A stretch of 40,520 nt of DNA from Opitutaceae bacterium (GTDB lineage: Bacteria > Verrucomicrobiota > Verrucomicrobiia > Opitutales > Opitutaceae), in the NCBI GenBank assembly GCA_947474995.1, contig CANJNJ010000034.1, positions 1-40,520 on the forward strand. Direction: 5' to 3'. Shown piece after piece: positions 8,029 to 37,487 of the stretch. The translations under genes were made by a program, and so were the position numbers. The notes beneath the pieces were generated by a model. That model made no database searches. It was not told the DNA's origin and saw only the letters and a program-made list of their open reading frames with translations. Positions within the stretch are counted from its first letter, which is position 1. Every line of letters begins with the position of its first letter.

Positions 8029-8112
8029 TAGGGACGGCGCTCCGAGCCGTCCGGGTGAAAACGTGGCATATTTCGATCGGTCAGGGCGGACGCCTGCGGA
8101 GAGGCGTCCCTA
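8029..8112. repeat. dispersed palindromic repeat, copy 1 (TAGGGACG family)
   Basis: TAGGGACG at 8029-8036 is inverted as CGTCCCTA at 8105-8112, with nested GC-rich arms (GACGGCGCTCCGAGCCGTC and GGACGCCTGCGGAGAGGCGT). The right-hand 25 or so bases are identical to the copy after the cytochrome gene at 26296-26346. The rnhB stop codon (8110-8112) lies inside the terminal repeat, so the element supplies the stop. About 80 further bases up to 7925 hold nothing recognisable. Confidence 0.8.
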
Positions 8113-8865
8113 CCCGCCGAGGAAATCCATCTGCGCCGGGTCGACCCGCACGGCGAAAAGTTTGCGCAGGAAAATGTCCCGGTGGTGCACGCAACGACCG
8201 AGCCGCAGGACGGCCTCGCGGTGCTCTTCGGTGCCGTAGCCCTTGTGCTGCGCGAAACCGTAGCCGGGAAATTTCGCGTCGAGTTCGGTCATCATCCGAT
8301 CCCGGGTCACCTTCGCGACAATCGACGCCATCGCGATGCAGAGCGAACGCGCGTCACCATGGACGAACGCCGTGTGCGGATAGGGAAAACTGCGCAGCGG
8401 CAAGCCATCGATCATCACGCGGGCCGAGACGAGCGGCCGGAATTTGGCCCGCTCTTCGACGCTGGAAAAGAGGTCGGGCTCATCGCGGCGCTCGAATACC
8501 TCCGGCGGATGAATGCCGCCCAAGGCGCGCCGCATCGCCAGCTTGGTCGCGCCCAGAATATTCAGCTGCTCAATCTCCCCCACGTCCGCCACGCCAAAGT
8601 TCGCGTGAATCTGGCCCCCCAGGGCGAGCTGCTCGAATTCGGCCCACAATTCCTCGCGCTGCGCCGCGGTCAGCACCTTCGAGTCATTTACCCGGCTACT
8701 CTTGGTCGTGGCCCAGCGCCCCTCGAGAAACTCGCGGTTGACCAGCACCGCCGCCGCCACCACCGGTCCGGCCAGCGCCCCGCGGCCAGCCTCATCGACC
8801 CCGATGAGGCTGGTCACTCCCTTGATCTGCTTCAGATCGAAGCCGCGCAGTTGCCGGCGTTTCAT
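8110..8865 (-). CDS. rnhB: ribonuclease HII
   Basis: 251 residues. RNase HII hydrolyses RNA in RNA-DNA hybrids and nicks at single embedded ribonucleotides, starting excision repair in the cytoplasm. The active-site motif GVDEAGRGALAGPVVAAAV holds Asp24 and Glu25. NDSKVL, FVHGDARSLCIAMASIVAKVTRDR and the substrate-binding segment GYGFAQHKGYGT are typical. An internal stretch near HPPEVFERRDEPDLFSSVEERAKF is longer than in compact homologues. It lies 7 bases downstream of rnhC and is surely co-transcribed with it. The stop codon lies in a dispersed repeat. Confidence 0.96.
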   Translation of the reverse strand: MKRRQLRGFDLKQIKGVTSLIGVDEAGRGALAGPVVAAAVLVNREFLEGRWATTKSSRVNDSKVLTAAQREELWAEFEQLALGGQIHANFGVADVGEIEQLNILGATKLAMRRALGGIHPPEVFERRDEPDLFSSVEERAKFRPLVSARVMIDGLPLRSFPYPHTAFVHGDARSLCIAMASIVAKVTRDRMMTELDAKFPGYGFAQHKGYGTEEHREAVLRLGRCVHHRDIFLRKLFAVRVDPAQMDFLGG

Positions 8866-16668: not shown

Positions 16669-17802
16669 ATGCCCGATCAAGCCACGCTCAACCACGCCGC
16701 GCAGGTCCTTGTCGCGATTTCCTCCGATCAGCGCGCCGACACGGCTCTGCGTTTCTATTTCGAGCATCACCGTTATCTCCAGCCGCCCGCCAAGCGCGCC
16801 ATCAGTCACACGGTCTTCGTTTATTTCCGCTGGTTCTCCTGGCTCGATCAAAAGGCCTCGCCGCAAAAGCGCCTCGAACAGGCGGTGGAACTCCACGATC
16901 GCTTCACCGCCGATCCCAAGAGCGTCAAGCCCGAGACCCTCGCCGTCCGCGCCGTCCCCGAGTGGCTGTGGACCGAAGTCGACCTTCCCGCCGAAGCGAA
17001 GGCCAGCTACCTCCGCCAGCTGCAGCGCGATCCGGCGCTGTGGATTCGCGCCCGCCCGGGTCAGGCCGCCGCGCTGGCCAAGTCCCTCTTCGCCTGCGAA
17101 CCCACGCCGCTCGCACCCGACGCGCTGCGCTTCACCGGCACGCAGGATCTCTTCAAGACCGAGCAATTCAAGACGGGCGAATTCGAGATTCAGGATCTCG
17201 CGTCCCAACTGGTCGGTGTCGCCGCCGCGCCCAAGCCGGGCGAAACGTGGTGGGACGCCTGCGCCGGCGAGGGTGGCAAAACGCTGCATCTCGCCGACCT
17301 CATGCAGAACAAGGGGGTGGTCTGGGCCACGGATCGAAACGAACGCCGGATCGACACGCTCAAGCGCCGCGCCGGCCGGGCCAAGCTCTTCAACTATCGC
17401 AGCGAATTTTGGGATGGCGGCCGGCAGCTCCCGACCAAGCTCAAGTTCGACGGCATTCTGCTCGACGCCCCTTGCAGTGGCGTCGGCACCTGGCAGCGCA
17501 ACCCGCACGCCCGCTGGACCACCACACCCGATGACGTCCGCGAGCTCGCCGCCACCCAGGCCACCCTGCTCAGCAACCTCGTCGGCTCGCTCAAACCCGG
17601 CGGTCGCCTCATCTATTCTGTCTGCACGCTGACCCGCAGCGAAACCACCGCCGTCGCCGCGGCCTTCACCGCCGACCATCCCGAATTGGAGCCGCTCCCG
17701 CTCTCCACGCTCAATTCGCAGCTCCCGACGCTGACCCTCTGGCCTCACGAGCTGAACGCCAACGGCATGTTCGTCGCCGCCTGGCGGAAAAAATCGGCGT
17801 AG
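16669..17802 (+). CDS. RsmB/NOL1/NOP2/Sun-family RNA (cytosine-5) methyltransferase
   Basis: 377 residues. An NusB-like helical N-terminal domain (ATLNHAAQVLVAISSDQRAD and PPAKRAISHTVFVYFRWFSW) precedes the SAM-dependent catalytic domain. That domain has motif I WWDACAGEGGKTLHLADLM, motif IV LLDAPCSGVGTWQRNP and motif VI YSVCTLTRSET, with the release and nucleophile cysteines in PC and TC. It probably makes m5C in rRNA, as RsmB does, although orthology is not certain. The ATG at 16669 was chosen because the longer frame upstream is antisense debris over the end of dnaE. Near the C-terminus STLNSQLPTLTL is encoded by DNA resembling the CTCAACTCTCAA heptad repeat. Confidence 0.88.
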   Translation: MPDQATLNHAAQVLVAISSDQRADTALRFYFEHHRYLQPPAKRAISHTVFVYFRWFSWLDQKASPQKRLEQAVELHDRFTADPKSVKPETLAVRAVPEWLWTEVDLPAEAKASYLRQLQRDPALWIRARPGQAAALAKSLFACEPTPLAPDALRFTGTQDLFKTEQFKTGEFEIQDLASQLVGVAAAPKPGETWWDACAGEGGKTLHLADLMQNKGVVWATDRNERRIDTLKRRAGRAKLFNYRSEFWDGGRQLPTKLKFDGILLDAPCSGVGTWQRNPHARWTTTPDDVRELAATQATLLSNLVGSLKPGGRLIYSVCTLTRSETTAVAAAFTADHPELEPLPLSTLNSQLPTLTLWPHELNANGMFVAAWRKKSA

Positions 17803-17830
17803 CGAATCAAAGCACGGACGCCTAAATGCG

Positions 17831-17932
17831 ATTGTCATTCTGAGCGCAGCGAAGAATCCAGTTGGACCTGAGCCGGCGGTTCGCGAGTGCGATTATCTCG
17901 CTGGATTTTTCGCTCGCGCTCAGAATGACAAT
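17831..17932. repeat. inverted repeat element, ATTCTGAGCG family copy 1
   Basis: The left arm at 17831-17861 begins ATTGTCATTCTGAGCG. The right arm at 17901-17932 ends GCGCTCAGAATGACAAT. Together they form a roughly 102-bp element with near-perfect 31-bp arms, between the RsmB-like and SAM methyltransferase genes. A second copy lies at 37408-37487. Confidence 0.85.
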
Positions 17933-17962
17933 CAAGGGTCACTTGTTAGAAGCCCGCTCAGA

Positions 17963-18820
17963 ATGGCAAGTCCGACACCAGCAAACAAGATTTCCGCCGC
18001 GCAGGTCCGCGCTGATTTCAACGACCTGCCCGCGGTCATCCACTACACCCGGGCCGCGCACGAACTCGGGCTCTGGCAATCTGAGCGCATCCTGATCGAA
18101 CGATTCTTCCCCGATCGCACGGCCCCGCTCCTCGAAGCGGGCTGTGGCTCCGGCCGCGTCAGCATCGCCCTGTGGAAAATCGGCTATGGCCATCTGACCG
18201 CCTTCGATTTCGCCACCGAGCTGGTCGACCAAGCGCACAGCCTCGCCGCCGAACGCGGCGCCACGGCCATCCGTTTCTTCGTCGGCGACGCCACCGCCCT
18301 CGGCCAATGTCATCCAATAGATGACAAAGCCCCCACCCCCAGCCCCGACCCCGGGGCGCCGGTTTGTCATCTATTAGATGACAAACCGGTCGGGGGGCCG
18401 CGGGGGTTTGGCGGGGCGCTGTTCCTGTTCAACGGATTGATGCAGATTCCGGGGCGCGAGAATCGCCGGGCGGCGTTGCGCGAGTTGCATCGGGTCTGCG
18501 TGCCGGGCGCACCGTTGCTTTTCACCACGCATGATCGCGAGTCGTCGCTCATGGAGCGCGCCCTTTGGCGGATGGAGGCCTACCACTGGGAGCGCGGTGA
18601 CCAGGATCCGCGGCTGCCCGAGTTCGGGGACCGCTATTTCGAGGATCACGCCGGCCGCACGTTCATGCACCTGCCGGTGCGCGAGGAAATTCTCGAGGAT
18701 CTCGCCGCCACCGGCTGGCGCCACACGTTCGACGCGATGCGGACCGACATCGCGAAGGAATCAAAGGCTGTGCGGCAATTCTCGGACGAGTGCCGGTTTT
18801 GGTCGGCGGTTCGGGCGTAG
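17963..18820 (+). CDS. class I SAM-dependent methyltransferase
   Basis: 285 residues. The SAM-binding motif I is PLLEAGCGSGRVSIALWKIG, followed by LTAFDFATELVDQAH (acidic loop after beta 2) and TAIRFFVGDATAL (motif II/III). After an interruption the fold resumes with ALFLFNGLMQIPGRENRRAALRELHRV, and MERALWRMEAYHWERGD lies in the C-terminal half. The substrate is unknown. Residues about 115-148, between the motif II region and LFLFNGLMQIP, are a low-complexity insertion (APTPSPDPGAPVCHLLDDKP) encoded by two strong DNA palindromes. Small-molecule methylation is likely. The gene is isolated and preceded by a repeat element. Confidence 0.85.
   Translation: MASPTPANKISAAQVRADFNDLPAVIHYTRAAHELGLWQSERILIERFFPDRTAPLLEAGCGSGRVSIALWKIGYGHLTAFDFATELVDQAHSLAAERGATAIRFFVGDATALGQCHPIDDKAPTPSPDPGAPVCHLLDDKPVGGPRGFGGALFLFNGLMQIPGRENRRAALRELHRVCVPGAPLLFTTHDRESSLMERALWRMEAYHWERGDQDPRLPEFGDRYFEDHAGRTFMHLPVREEILEDLAATGWRHTFDAMRTDIAKESKAVRQFSDECRFWSAVRA
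18308..18389. repeat. paired palindromes inserted in frame in the methyltransferase gene
   Basis: TGTCATCCAATAGATGACA (18308-18326) and a perfect 31-base palindrome at 18359-18389 (half-site TTTGTCATCTA, with CCGG at both ends) share the core GTCATC-AATAG/TATTAG-ATGAC. C- and G-rich tracts lie between and after them and could extend the fold. The insertion is a multiple of three and causes no stop. Confidence 0.85.
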
Positions 18821-18910
18821 CAGCGTTTGTCCCTCGCGGTGCGTTCGCGGGACTCGGCGAAGCGGAGCGCGTGTTCCCCAACCCCCTGGTCATTCTGAGC
18901 CGGACCCGTG

Positions 18911-19088
18911 CAGGTGAGAGGTGAAAGTTGAAAGCGATGAACGCCGGGGCGAAATCGCTCTTTTCGGGCTGGGTTCGAGGCAAACTGATGAGTGACTCCC
19001 TTTTCGCGGTCTACCCCGCAGTTAACTTTTGCCTGCCCTGGCTTTCAACTTTCAACCTTCAACTCTCAACTGAATTTTTCCGGCTGAG
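18911..19088. repeat. inverted heptad repeat element in a 489-bp gene-free region
   Basis: TGAAAGTTGAAAGC (from 18921) is inverted perfectly as GCTTTCAACTTTCA (19041-19054). The right side continues through heptads to CTGAATTTTTCCGGCTGAG (19070-19088). That right end closely matches the copy at 32527-32577 in reverse. The rest of the region 18821-19309 has short frames only, plus the hairpin at 19201. Confidence 0.75.
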
Positions 19089-19200
19089 ACCGGTCACCAA
19101 CGGACACGCGTTGGGCATTTCTGACAGACGAATCCGCTCCTGTCGGTCAGCCTTTTTAGGTACCCTTAAAGACGAGCGAAGGCGCACTCAAGGTGGTCCA

Positions 19201-19237
19201 GGAGCTCCGCGCGCGGACGGGCCGCGCACGGAGCTCC
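19201..19237. repeat. strong GC hairpin downstream of the acyl-CoA synthetase gene
   Basis: GGAGCTCCGCGCGCGG (19201-19216) pairs with CCGCGCACGGAGCTCC (19222-19237) with one mismatch and a 5-base loop. It lies about 70 bases after the minus-strand ligase stop. Confidence 0.65.
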
Positions 19238-19309
19238 TTCATAAAACGTGAGTTTGAACCGGCGTATCGGCCGCGCAGGGAGTGCACGACCCACCCGGTA
19301 CGGAGTCCA

Positions 19310-37407: not shown

Positions 37408-37487
37408 TGTCATTCTGAGCGAAGCAAAGAATCCATCTCATCGGCGGTGACGGCGTCGTGGATTCTTCGCTCGCGCTCAGAATGACA
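37408..37487. repeat. inverted repeat element, ATTCTGAGCG family copy 2
   Basis: TGTCATTCTGAGCGAAGC (37408-37425) onward to GAATCCA is inverted as TGGATTCTTCGCTCGCGCTC onward, ending CAGAATGACA at 37487. The 80-bp element fills the spacer between the PLP enzyme and the hydroxyacid dehydrogenase. Confidence 0.85.

Follow-up and report, generated by a model that had tools for sequence, protein, structure and literature searches.

Paired palindromes of a dispersed Opitutaceae repeat lie in frame within a methyltransferase gene

The window, i.e., the whole stretch of 40,520 nucleotides that was analysed, carries on its forward strand a gene for a SAM-dependent methyltransferase of 285 amino acids (17963–18820). 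The product matches Methyltransf_25 with an E-value of 9.6e-11. Two palindromes had been noticed within this gene in a preliminary description of the DNA, and both are present. A palindrome scan places the larger one at 18359–18389 (CCGGTTTGTCATCTATTAGATGACAAACCGG). It is a perfect palindrome of 31 bp with 15-base arms around a 1-base centre, and no perfect palindrome in the window whose loop does not exceed 7 bases is longer; from base composition, the chance expectation for 15-base arms is approximately 0.0001 per window and 0.015 per genome. It surrounds a core, here called palindrome 2 (GTCATCTATTAGATGAC, 18366–18382), in which 8/8 arm pairs match and of which there are exact genomic copies. 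The related palindrome 1 (GTCATCCAATAGATGAC, 18309–18325) has 17 bases and 7/8 arm pairs, and comparison with homologues places it at a site that is shared with them. It starts 57 bases, or 19 codons, upstream of the palindrome 2 core, and the intervening spacer (18326–18365), flanked by AAA...TTT edges, is C-rich as described. All of these elements are given without strand.

The strong hairpin that had been anticipated is borne out by prediction, as the RNA fold of 18295–18425 reaches -80.2 kcal/mol (z -6.9), a value as low as which is found in 0 of 200 shuffles. The C-rich stretch between the palindromes is predicted to pair with a G-rich stretch 3′ of palindrome 2. On the forward strand, this would yield an extended structure (18295–18418) in which a C-rich 5′ side pairs with a G-rich 3′ side and both palindromes are enclosed. 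The change from C-rich before to G-rich after the palindromes is a skew flip that is also seen around other genomic copies. The idea that the extended flanks match each other position by position was considered and rejected: own flanks (3–43) gave -33.06 kcal/mol and swapped flanks -31.54 (SE 1.14), own flanks not being clearly better.

The frame 17963–18820 is open and therefore the element can simply be translated, in agreement with the earlier claim that the palindromes introduce no stop. An AlphaFold2 model based on 36 sequences has a confident core (mean pLDDT 86.6, pTM 0.86), while the block averages for residues 121–150 are 49, 50 and 63 and this segment is predicted to be disordered. 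Given this low pLDDT, the insert probably forms a flexible loop preceding the strand at 151–154. A sequence search of the PDB gave no match at E 0.001. The window loop comprises 42 amino acids versus a modal 17 among 90 distinct homologue loops, so that the excess amounts to approximately 25 residues and not to the 34 that had been estimated.

These 90 loops derive from 108 methyltransferase loci (30 + 78), of which 99 were parsed around the loop. Most records with homologues are titled Opitutaceae, Opitutae or Opitutia, some are plain Verrucomicrobia and a few carry other titles. By a generous rule, which asks for GT...AC ends, a minimum of 5 matching pairs among the 8 of the arms and a minimum of 2 matching bases among the 4 of the centre, 43 of the 90 loops have a palindrome and 47 do not. 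The first palindrome starts 13, 16 or 19 nt past a conserved motif, i.e., at three neighbouring codons, in 39 of the 43, and different species have different arms at this shared, in-frame site. All 8 arm pairs match in 13 of the first palindromes, 7 in 23, 6 in 5 and 5 in 2. Because the palindromes that many homologues have at this codon site differ in spelling, palindrome 1 looks like an old resident. The preliminary description had proposed a DNA element inserted in frame; that a dispersed element lies in frame in the methyltransferase is upheld, but an isolated insertion does not agree with a codon site at which so many homologues have a palindrome of their own. Palindrome 1 adds almost no length to the loop: 17 amino acids is the length of 33 of the 90 loops, comprising 21 of the 34 single-palindrome loops and 12 of the 47 palindrome-free ones. 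No clean empty site for palindrome 1 was recovered among the 90 homologue loops, and some palindrome-free loops (L121 and L123) look, by eye, like decayed palindromes.

It could be argued that the protein is what is conserved here and that the palindrome is a by-product of a protein motif, as the parsed loops have an open frame and the peptide often starts with CH. The orthologue comparison that had been suggested makes this extremely unlikely. Loop peptides differ (CHLLDDK, CHVIRDT, CNLLGY, GSLIDY), whereas a palindrome is mostly retained, which speaks for DNA and not for a protein motif. Moreover, the codons in the middle of the palindrome are rare (CTA 1.3, TTA 0.9 and ATA 0.2 per 1000 in 10004 window codons), pointing to an origin as DNA, and the same DNA is found between genes.

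Arm variation tends strongly to complementarity. In 39 shared-site palindromes (34 distinct), two-sided changes occur at 8 of 11 base pairs, with 48 cells versus 16.5 after shuffling among 374 cells; rows were chosen for at least 5/8 pairs, which favours pairing, and relatedness inflates the count. The same 374 cells contain 6 one-sided standard (G-U style) pairs and 48 unpaired cells. On a quick tree, presence of the palindrome (39/90 by a stricter rule) requires 16 changes versus 24–35 in 100 label shuffles. Arm types require 18 versus 21–27 when shuffled, 35 of the 87 inner branches being weak.

Whether an element of this kind exists elsewhere was determined in the source genome (G000; 5.24 Mb, 261 contigs). 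Absence of any other genomic copy had been named in advance as an argument against a DNA element, and copies were found: GTCATC-N5-GATGAC has 56 matches and its reversed control 0, and 51 of the sites have an A/T centre. In 46 regions that were fetched, a slightly different pattern also gives 51 copies. At the third flanking position, 42 of 47 copies have T on their left side and 41 of 47 have A on their right side. Gene context was assigned with our own codon-usage gene caller, trained on the window genes. By these calls, 23 of the 51 copies are located in gaps between tandem genes, 13 in convergent and 4 in divergent gaps, 5 at edges and 6 in genes, and the element is a dispersed short stem-loop for which gaps between tandem or convergent genes are the main location. 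In 5 of the 51 copies, the palindrome provides the stop codon of an adjacent called gene. The six in-gene copies are found in five genes, each of which encodes HLLDDK, and the window methyltransferase has two of them. The other four carrier genes were inspected by eye without a family search, and we take them to encode an NAD-dependent epimerase-like protein, an RsmB-like RNA methyltransferase, UvrA and an exopolysaccharide-type sugar transferase. In a relative, G018, 9 of 42 copies are inside called genes, in the same phase (phase 1) as the 6 of 51 in G000; this single phase follows from open frames, because the other phases hold stops. Single palindromes span 17–45 bp and pairs 77–81 bp, including their AAA/TTT edges. 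A hidden second palindrome was not found beside single G000 copies, as only the known pairs score at least 19 of 22. A second palindrome type, GTCACC-...-GGTGAC, was observed in G000 at L045 (~1090), L047 (~8) and L086 (~1530).

In the methyltransferase loops, all 10 of 10 pair spacings are divisible by three (54, 57, 66 or 69), and spacings of 78 and 57 are seen in other genes of G018. These values follow from the open frames and are not independent proof; outside called genes, 4 of the 12 exact-core pairs of G018 have a spacing that is a multiple of three. The window's second palindrome is best viewed through three loops of one clade. L162 and L210 have loops of 38 amino acids with two palindromes, whereas that of L173 has 19 amino acids and one imperfect palindrome, which is below the rule. 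The difference is exactly 57 bp, i.e., one palindrome-spacer unit between two copies, and would represent a frame-keeping unit. By analogy, palindrome 2 and its spacer together appear to be an addition of 57 bp that leaves the frame intact. Two candidate properties of pairs were rejected. Inverted upkeep between pair members is one, as the mismatched members of 16 pairs gave 2 inverted cases, 1 direct case and 13 ties. A structured spacer is the other (mean z -0.54 versus 0.13 in the control, with 17 spacers and 136 windows), and 13 of these spacers, from G018, are without consensus structure.

Another reading is an RNA hairpin element, such as a terminator or a stabiliser of mRNA 3′ ends, that happens to fall in genes too. 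In G000 and G018 together, convergent gaps outnumber divergent ones 20 to 6 with each pair taken as one unit (p 0.009, own gene calls) and 24 to 8 by single copies, and the RNA fold predicted for the window is strong. An RNA stem is, however, expected to pass through G-U pairs more often than is seen in the covariation set, with its 6 one-sided cells next to 48 two-sided and 48 unpaired ones. In addition, no Rfam family reaches its gathering score in 17750–19300 (best 20.6 bits versus 69), and the G018 spacers without common structure do not favour a functional RNA either. This explanation is considered quite improbable.

The repeat is named TAWTA palindrome here. Its core is GTNANN-TAWTA-NNTNAC, in many cases with TTT...AAA or GTGT...ACAC at its borders, and it occurs singly or in pairs that are often 54–58 bp apart. 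In the family scans, the TAWTA centre is constant because the search pattern demands it. The exact core was present in 5 of the 57 genomes of a first draw, the source genome included. A looser pattern, GTMAYNTAWTANRTKAC, was found in 118 of 200 family genomes with up to 88 copies, its reversed control occurring once each in 2 genomes. In a draw across the phylum, GTMAYNTAWTANRTKAC was present in 35 of 387 genomes, comprising 24 of the 37 from the family and 11 of the 350 from outside it (each once), while the reversed control was found in 17 of these 350. As the counts outside the family do not exceed the control, the TAWTA palindrome is a trait of Opitutaceae and is at background level elsewhere in the phylum. 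The arms vary and are mostly complementary (GTCATC, GTCACC, GTCACG, GTCACT, GTCAAC, GTAACC, GTAACG and others). The arm type in the methyltransferase is the commonest of the genome in G000, G018, G242 and G251, in the latter among the matches listed, and not in G256.

Besides the methyltransferase gene, UvrA is a second host gene. Its palindrome is present in 5 of 30 loci, all at an identical nucleotide offset and thus at one codon. The arms are GTCATC in G000, G005 and G004, GTCACC in G003 and GTAACC in G023. In G005 and G003, the UvrA and methyltransferase palindromes differ in arm type.

A palindrome in DNA that reaches 126 copies in a genome could also be a protein-binding site, for a regulator, a nucleoid protein or a segregation protein, that is under selection at the DNA level and co-evolves with its protein. 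This would suit G236, in which the methyltransferase copy (position 74527, L144) is perfect and alone matches the loose pattern exactly, the three other palindromes of the genome being imperfect. It would also suit the core GTCACGTAWTACGTGAC, which is common to the methyltransferases of L144, L150, L159 and L190, although their proteins without the loop are 62–74% identical. Against it stand the several arm types that coexist within G251 and within G256, the 47 of 90 loops without palindrome and a copy number ranging from 0 to 88 within the family, and a binding site is considered unlikely.

A further possibility is that the palindromes are REPs or REPINs and that a REP-associated tyrosine transposase (RAYT, Y1_Tnp) encoded in the same genome mobilises them. 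They resemble the REPs described in PMC3733652 in size and dispersion, in forming dimers and in lying after genes. Seven Y1_Tnp matches are present in G000, and at least one in 13 of 15 palindrome-rich genomes; the other two, without match, are 84% and 74% complete. Copies do not, however, flank the Y1_Tnp gene at the 37 loci inspected. A TAWTA palindrome was present at 1 of 30 loci fetched (of 75 matches in the 15 genomes), more than 1 kb away, and at 1 of the 7 G000 loci, approximately 500 bp away, where the gene is flanked by different inverted repeats of its own. Other palindromes are seen near the gene at L095, L096 and L097, and the GTAG tag is not beyond background. No mobilising enzyme for the TAWTA palindrome was thus found in the Y1_Tnp loci examined, and movement by a RAYT is improbable. 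Y1_Tnp locus L094 has GGGGTCATGTCAGGACATAGGACA on both sides (880–907 and 1878–1907), and the Y1_Tnp genes of G000 appear to come with their own inverted repeats.

The best explanation, which is given a probability of roughly 75%, is that the window gene carries a pair of a dispersed, non-autonomous, REP/RPE-like Opitutaceae repeat that is long resident in tolerant loops and of which the hairpin tends to keep the arms matched. Copies would arrive by a mobilising or copying process and be tolerated within genes if they fall in a flexible loop, in a stop-free phase and do not shift the frame by their length, and their peptide would presumably be translated as a disordered loop. Once resident, the hairpin would tend to keep its arms matched, most likely by template switching during replication, in which one arm is copied from the other. 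The sequence could then drift while the palindrome stays, and palindrome-spacer units might be gained or lost between two copies. Template switching has been reported to make and mend hairpins, according to excerpts of two sources (PMC8794818; PMC6649704), and fits the two-sided changes and the constant centre. Hairpin-templated copying is the favoured cause of arm matching, but the latter could instead stem from re-insertion or conversion from other copies, or a binding protein might select for it. Whatever the upkeep, it must be leaky, as many copies are imperfect. A stronger version would be a self-correcting selfish hairpin, persisting at the level of the family in two or more unrelated genes, in each at a single codon site, with arms repeatedly rewritten by arm copying during replication and with neither a transposase nor a host function being required for its persistence. 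This version is regarded as doubtful.

Palindromic repeats inside genes are already known, the REPs in genes of Opitutus terrae and the RPEs being nearest to the present case. RPEs are described, in the accessible part of PMC10969869, as palindromic repeats of approximately 150 bp that lie in frame inside protein genes and of which the peptide is tolerated. By this description, the TAWTA palindromes are alike in that they also lie in frame in genes with a shared peptide (HLLDDK in five G000 genes), while they are not alike in size, single copies and pairs both being shorter. RPEs are moreover said to lose their repeat identity over time (PMC6649704, 2019, in excerpt), whereas TAWTA arms change together at a shared site, although many are imperfect. 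As far as the available text of PMC3733652 (BMC Genomics 2013) describes them, GTAG/CGTC REPs are short and dispersed, occur as singles or dimers that are mostly 20–100 bp apart and are found mostly between tandem or convergent genes; some supply stop codons and some are inside genes. REPs are reported there in both uvrA genes of O. terrae and, at approximately one site, in recB of two Xanthomonas. The TAWTA palindromes share with these REPs their size, dispersion, single or dimer form, tandem and convergent gaps and the in-gene and stop-codon cases; they differ by their fixed centre, and a transposase link was not found. A terminal GTAG or CGTC beside the stem is not enriched in 102 flanks of 14 nt from the 51 G000 copies (GTAG 0 with 1.7 expected; CGTC 3 with 8.2 expected). 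The palindromes might be related to one of the O. terrae REP families of PMC3733652. In mitochondria of Nematomorpha, coding palindromes are kept matched through evolution and template switching has been proposed (PMC6649704, in excerpt). The palindromes within genes and their matching through evolution are common to both cases, but those of Nematomorpha can reach 284 bp and code for conserved parts of proteins, while the TAWTA palindromes form a single-core family that is dispersed and sits in variable loops.

Dimers of REPs, or REPINs, which are associated with RAYTs, consist, like TAWTA pairs, of two palindromes approximately 55 bp apart. TAWTA pairs differ from these, as no RAYT partner was found at the loci examined and as, among 41 distinct pairs, 25 have members with inverted centres and 16 have members with direct ones. 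Searching six spellings of the core in one open literature library yielded no paper. As far as these searches tell, the TAWTA family, lacking the usual tags and a transposase partner, is new, as is a palindrome that is re-spelled at one codon site in two genes. One gene site, observed in dozens of genomes and with many arm spellings around a near-constant centre, makes it testable whether hairpins persist in coding DNA by selection, re-insertion or templated repair. Lineage-specific loops in Opitutaceae proteins may represent DNA repeats rather than protein adaptations.

The window and the loops also contain other repeats. GTCATTCTGAGC is another dispersed repeat, partly in inverted pairs, with six copies (one with a mismatch) on both strands where 0.18 are expected. 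The copies are located at 17834–17845, 17918–17929, 17956–17967, 18889–18900, 37409–37420 and 37475–37486, some of them just upstream of the methyltransferase. A CTCTCAAC-like tract lies between genes at approximately 19040–19072, and in sister species the methyltransferase loops L110 and L160 and the UvrA loops L248 and L251 carry other small repeats (AATCCG, CATCGCC or CTCTCAAC tracts). Lastly, a perfect palindrome with 12-base arms, CCAGCCTCATCGACCCCGATGAGGCTGG, is present at 8786–8813, within the frame 8110–8865.
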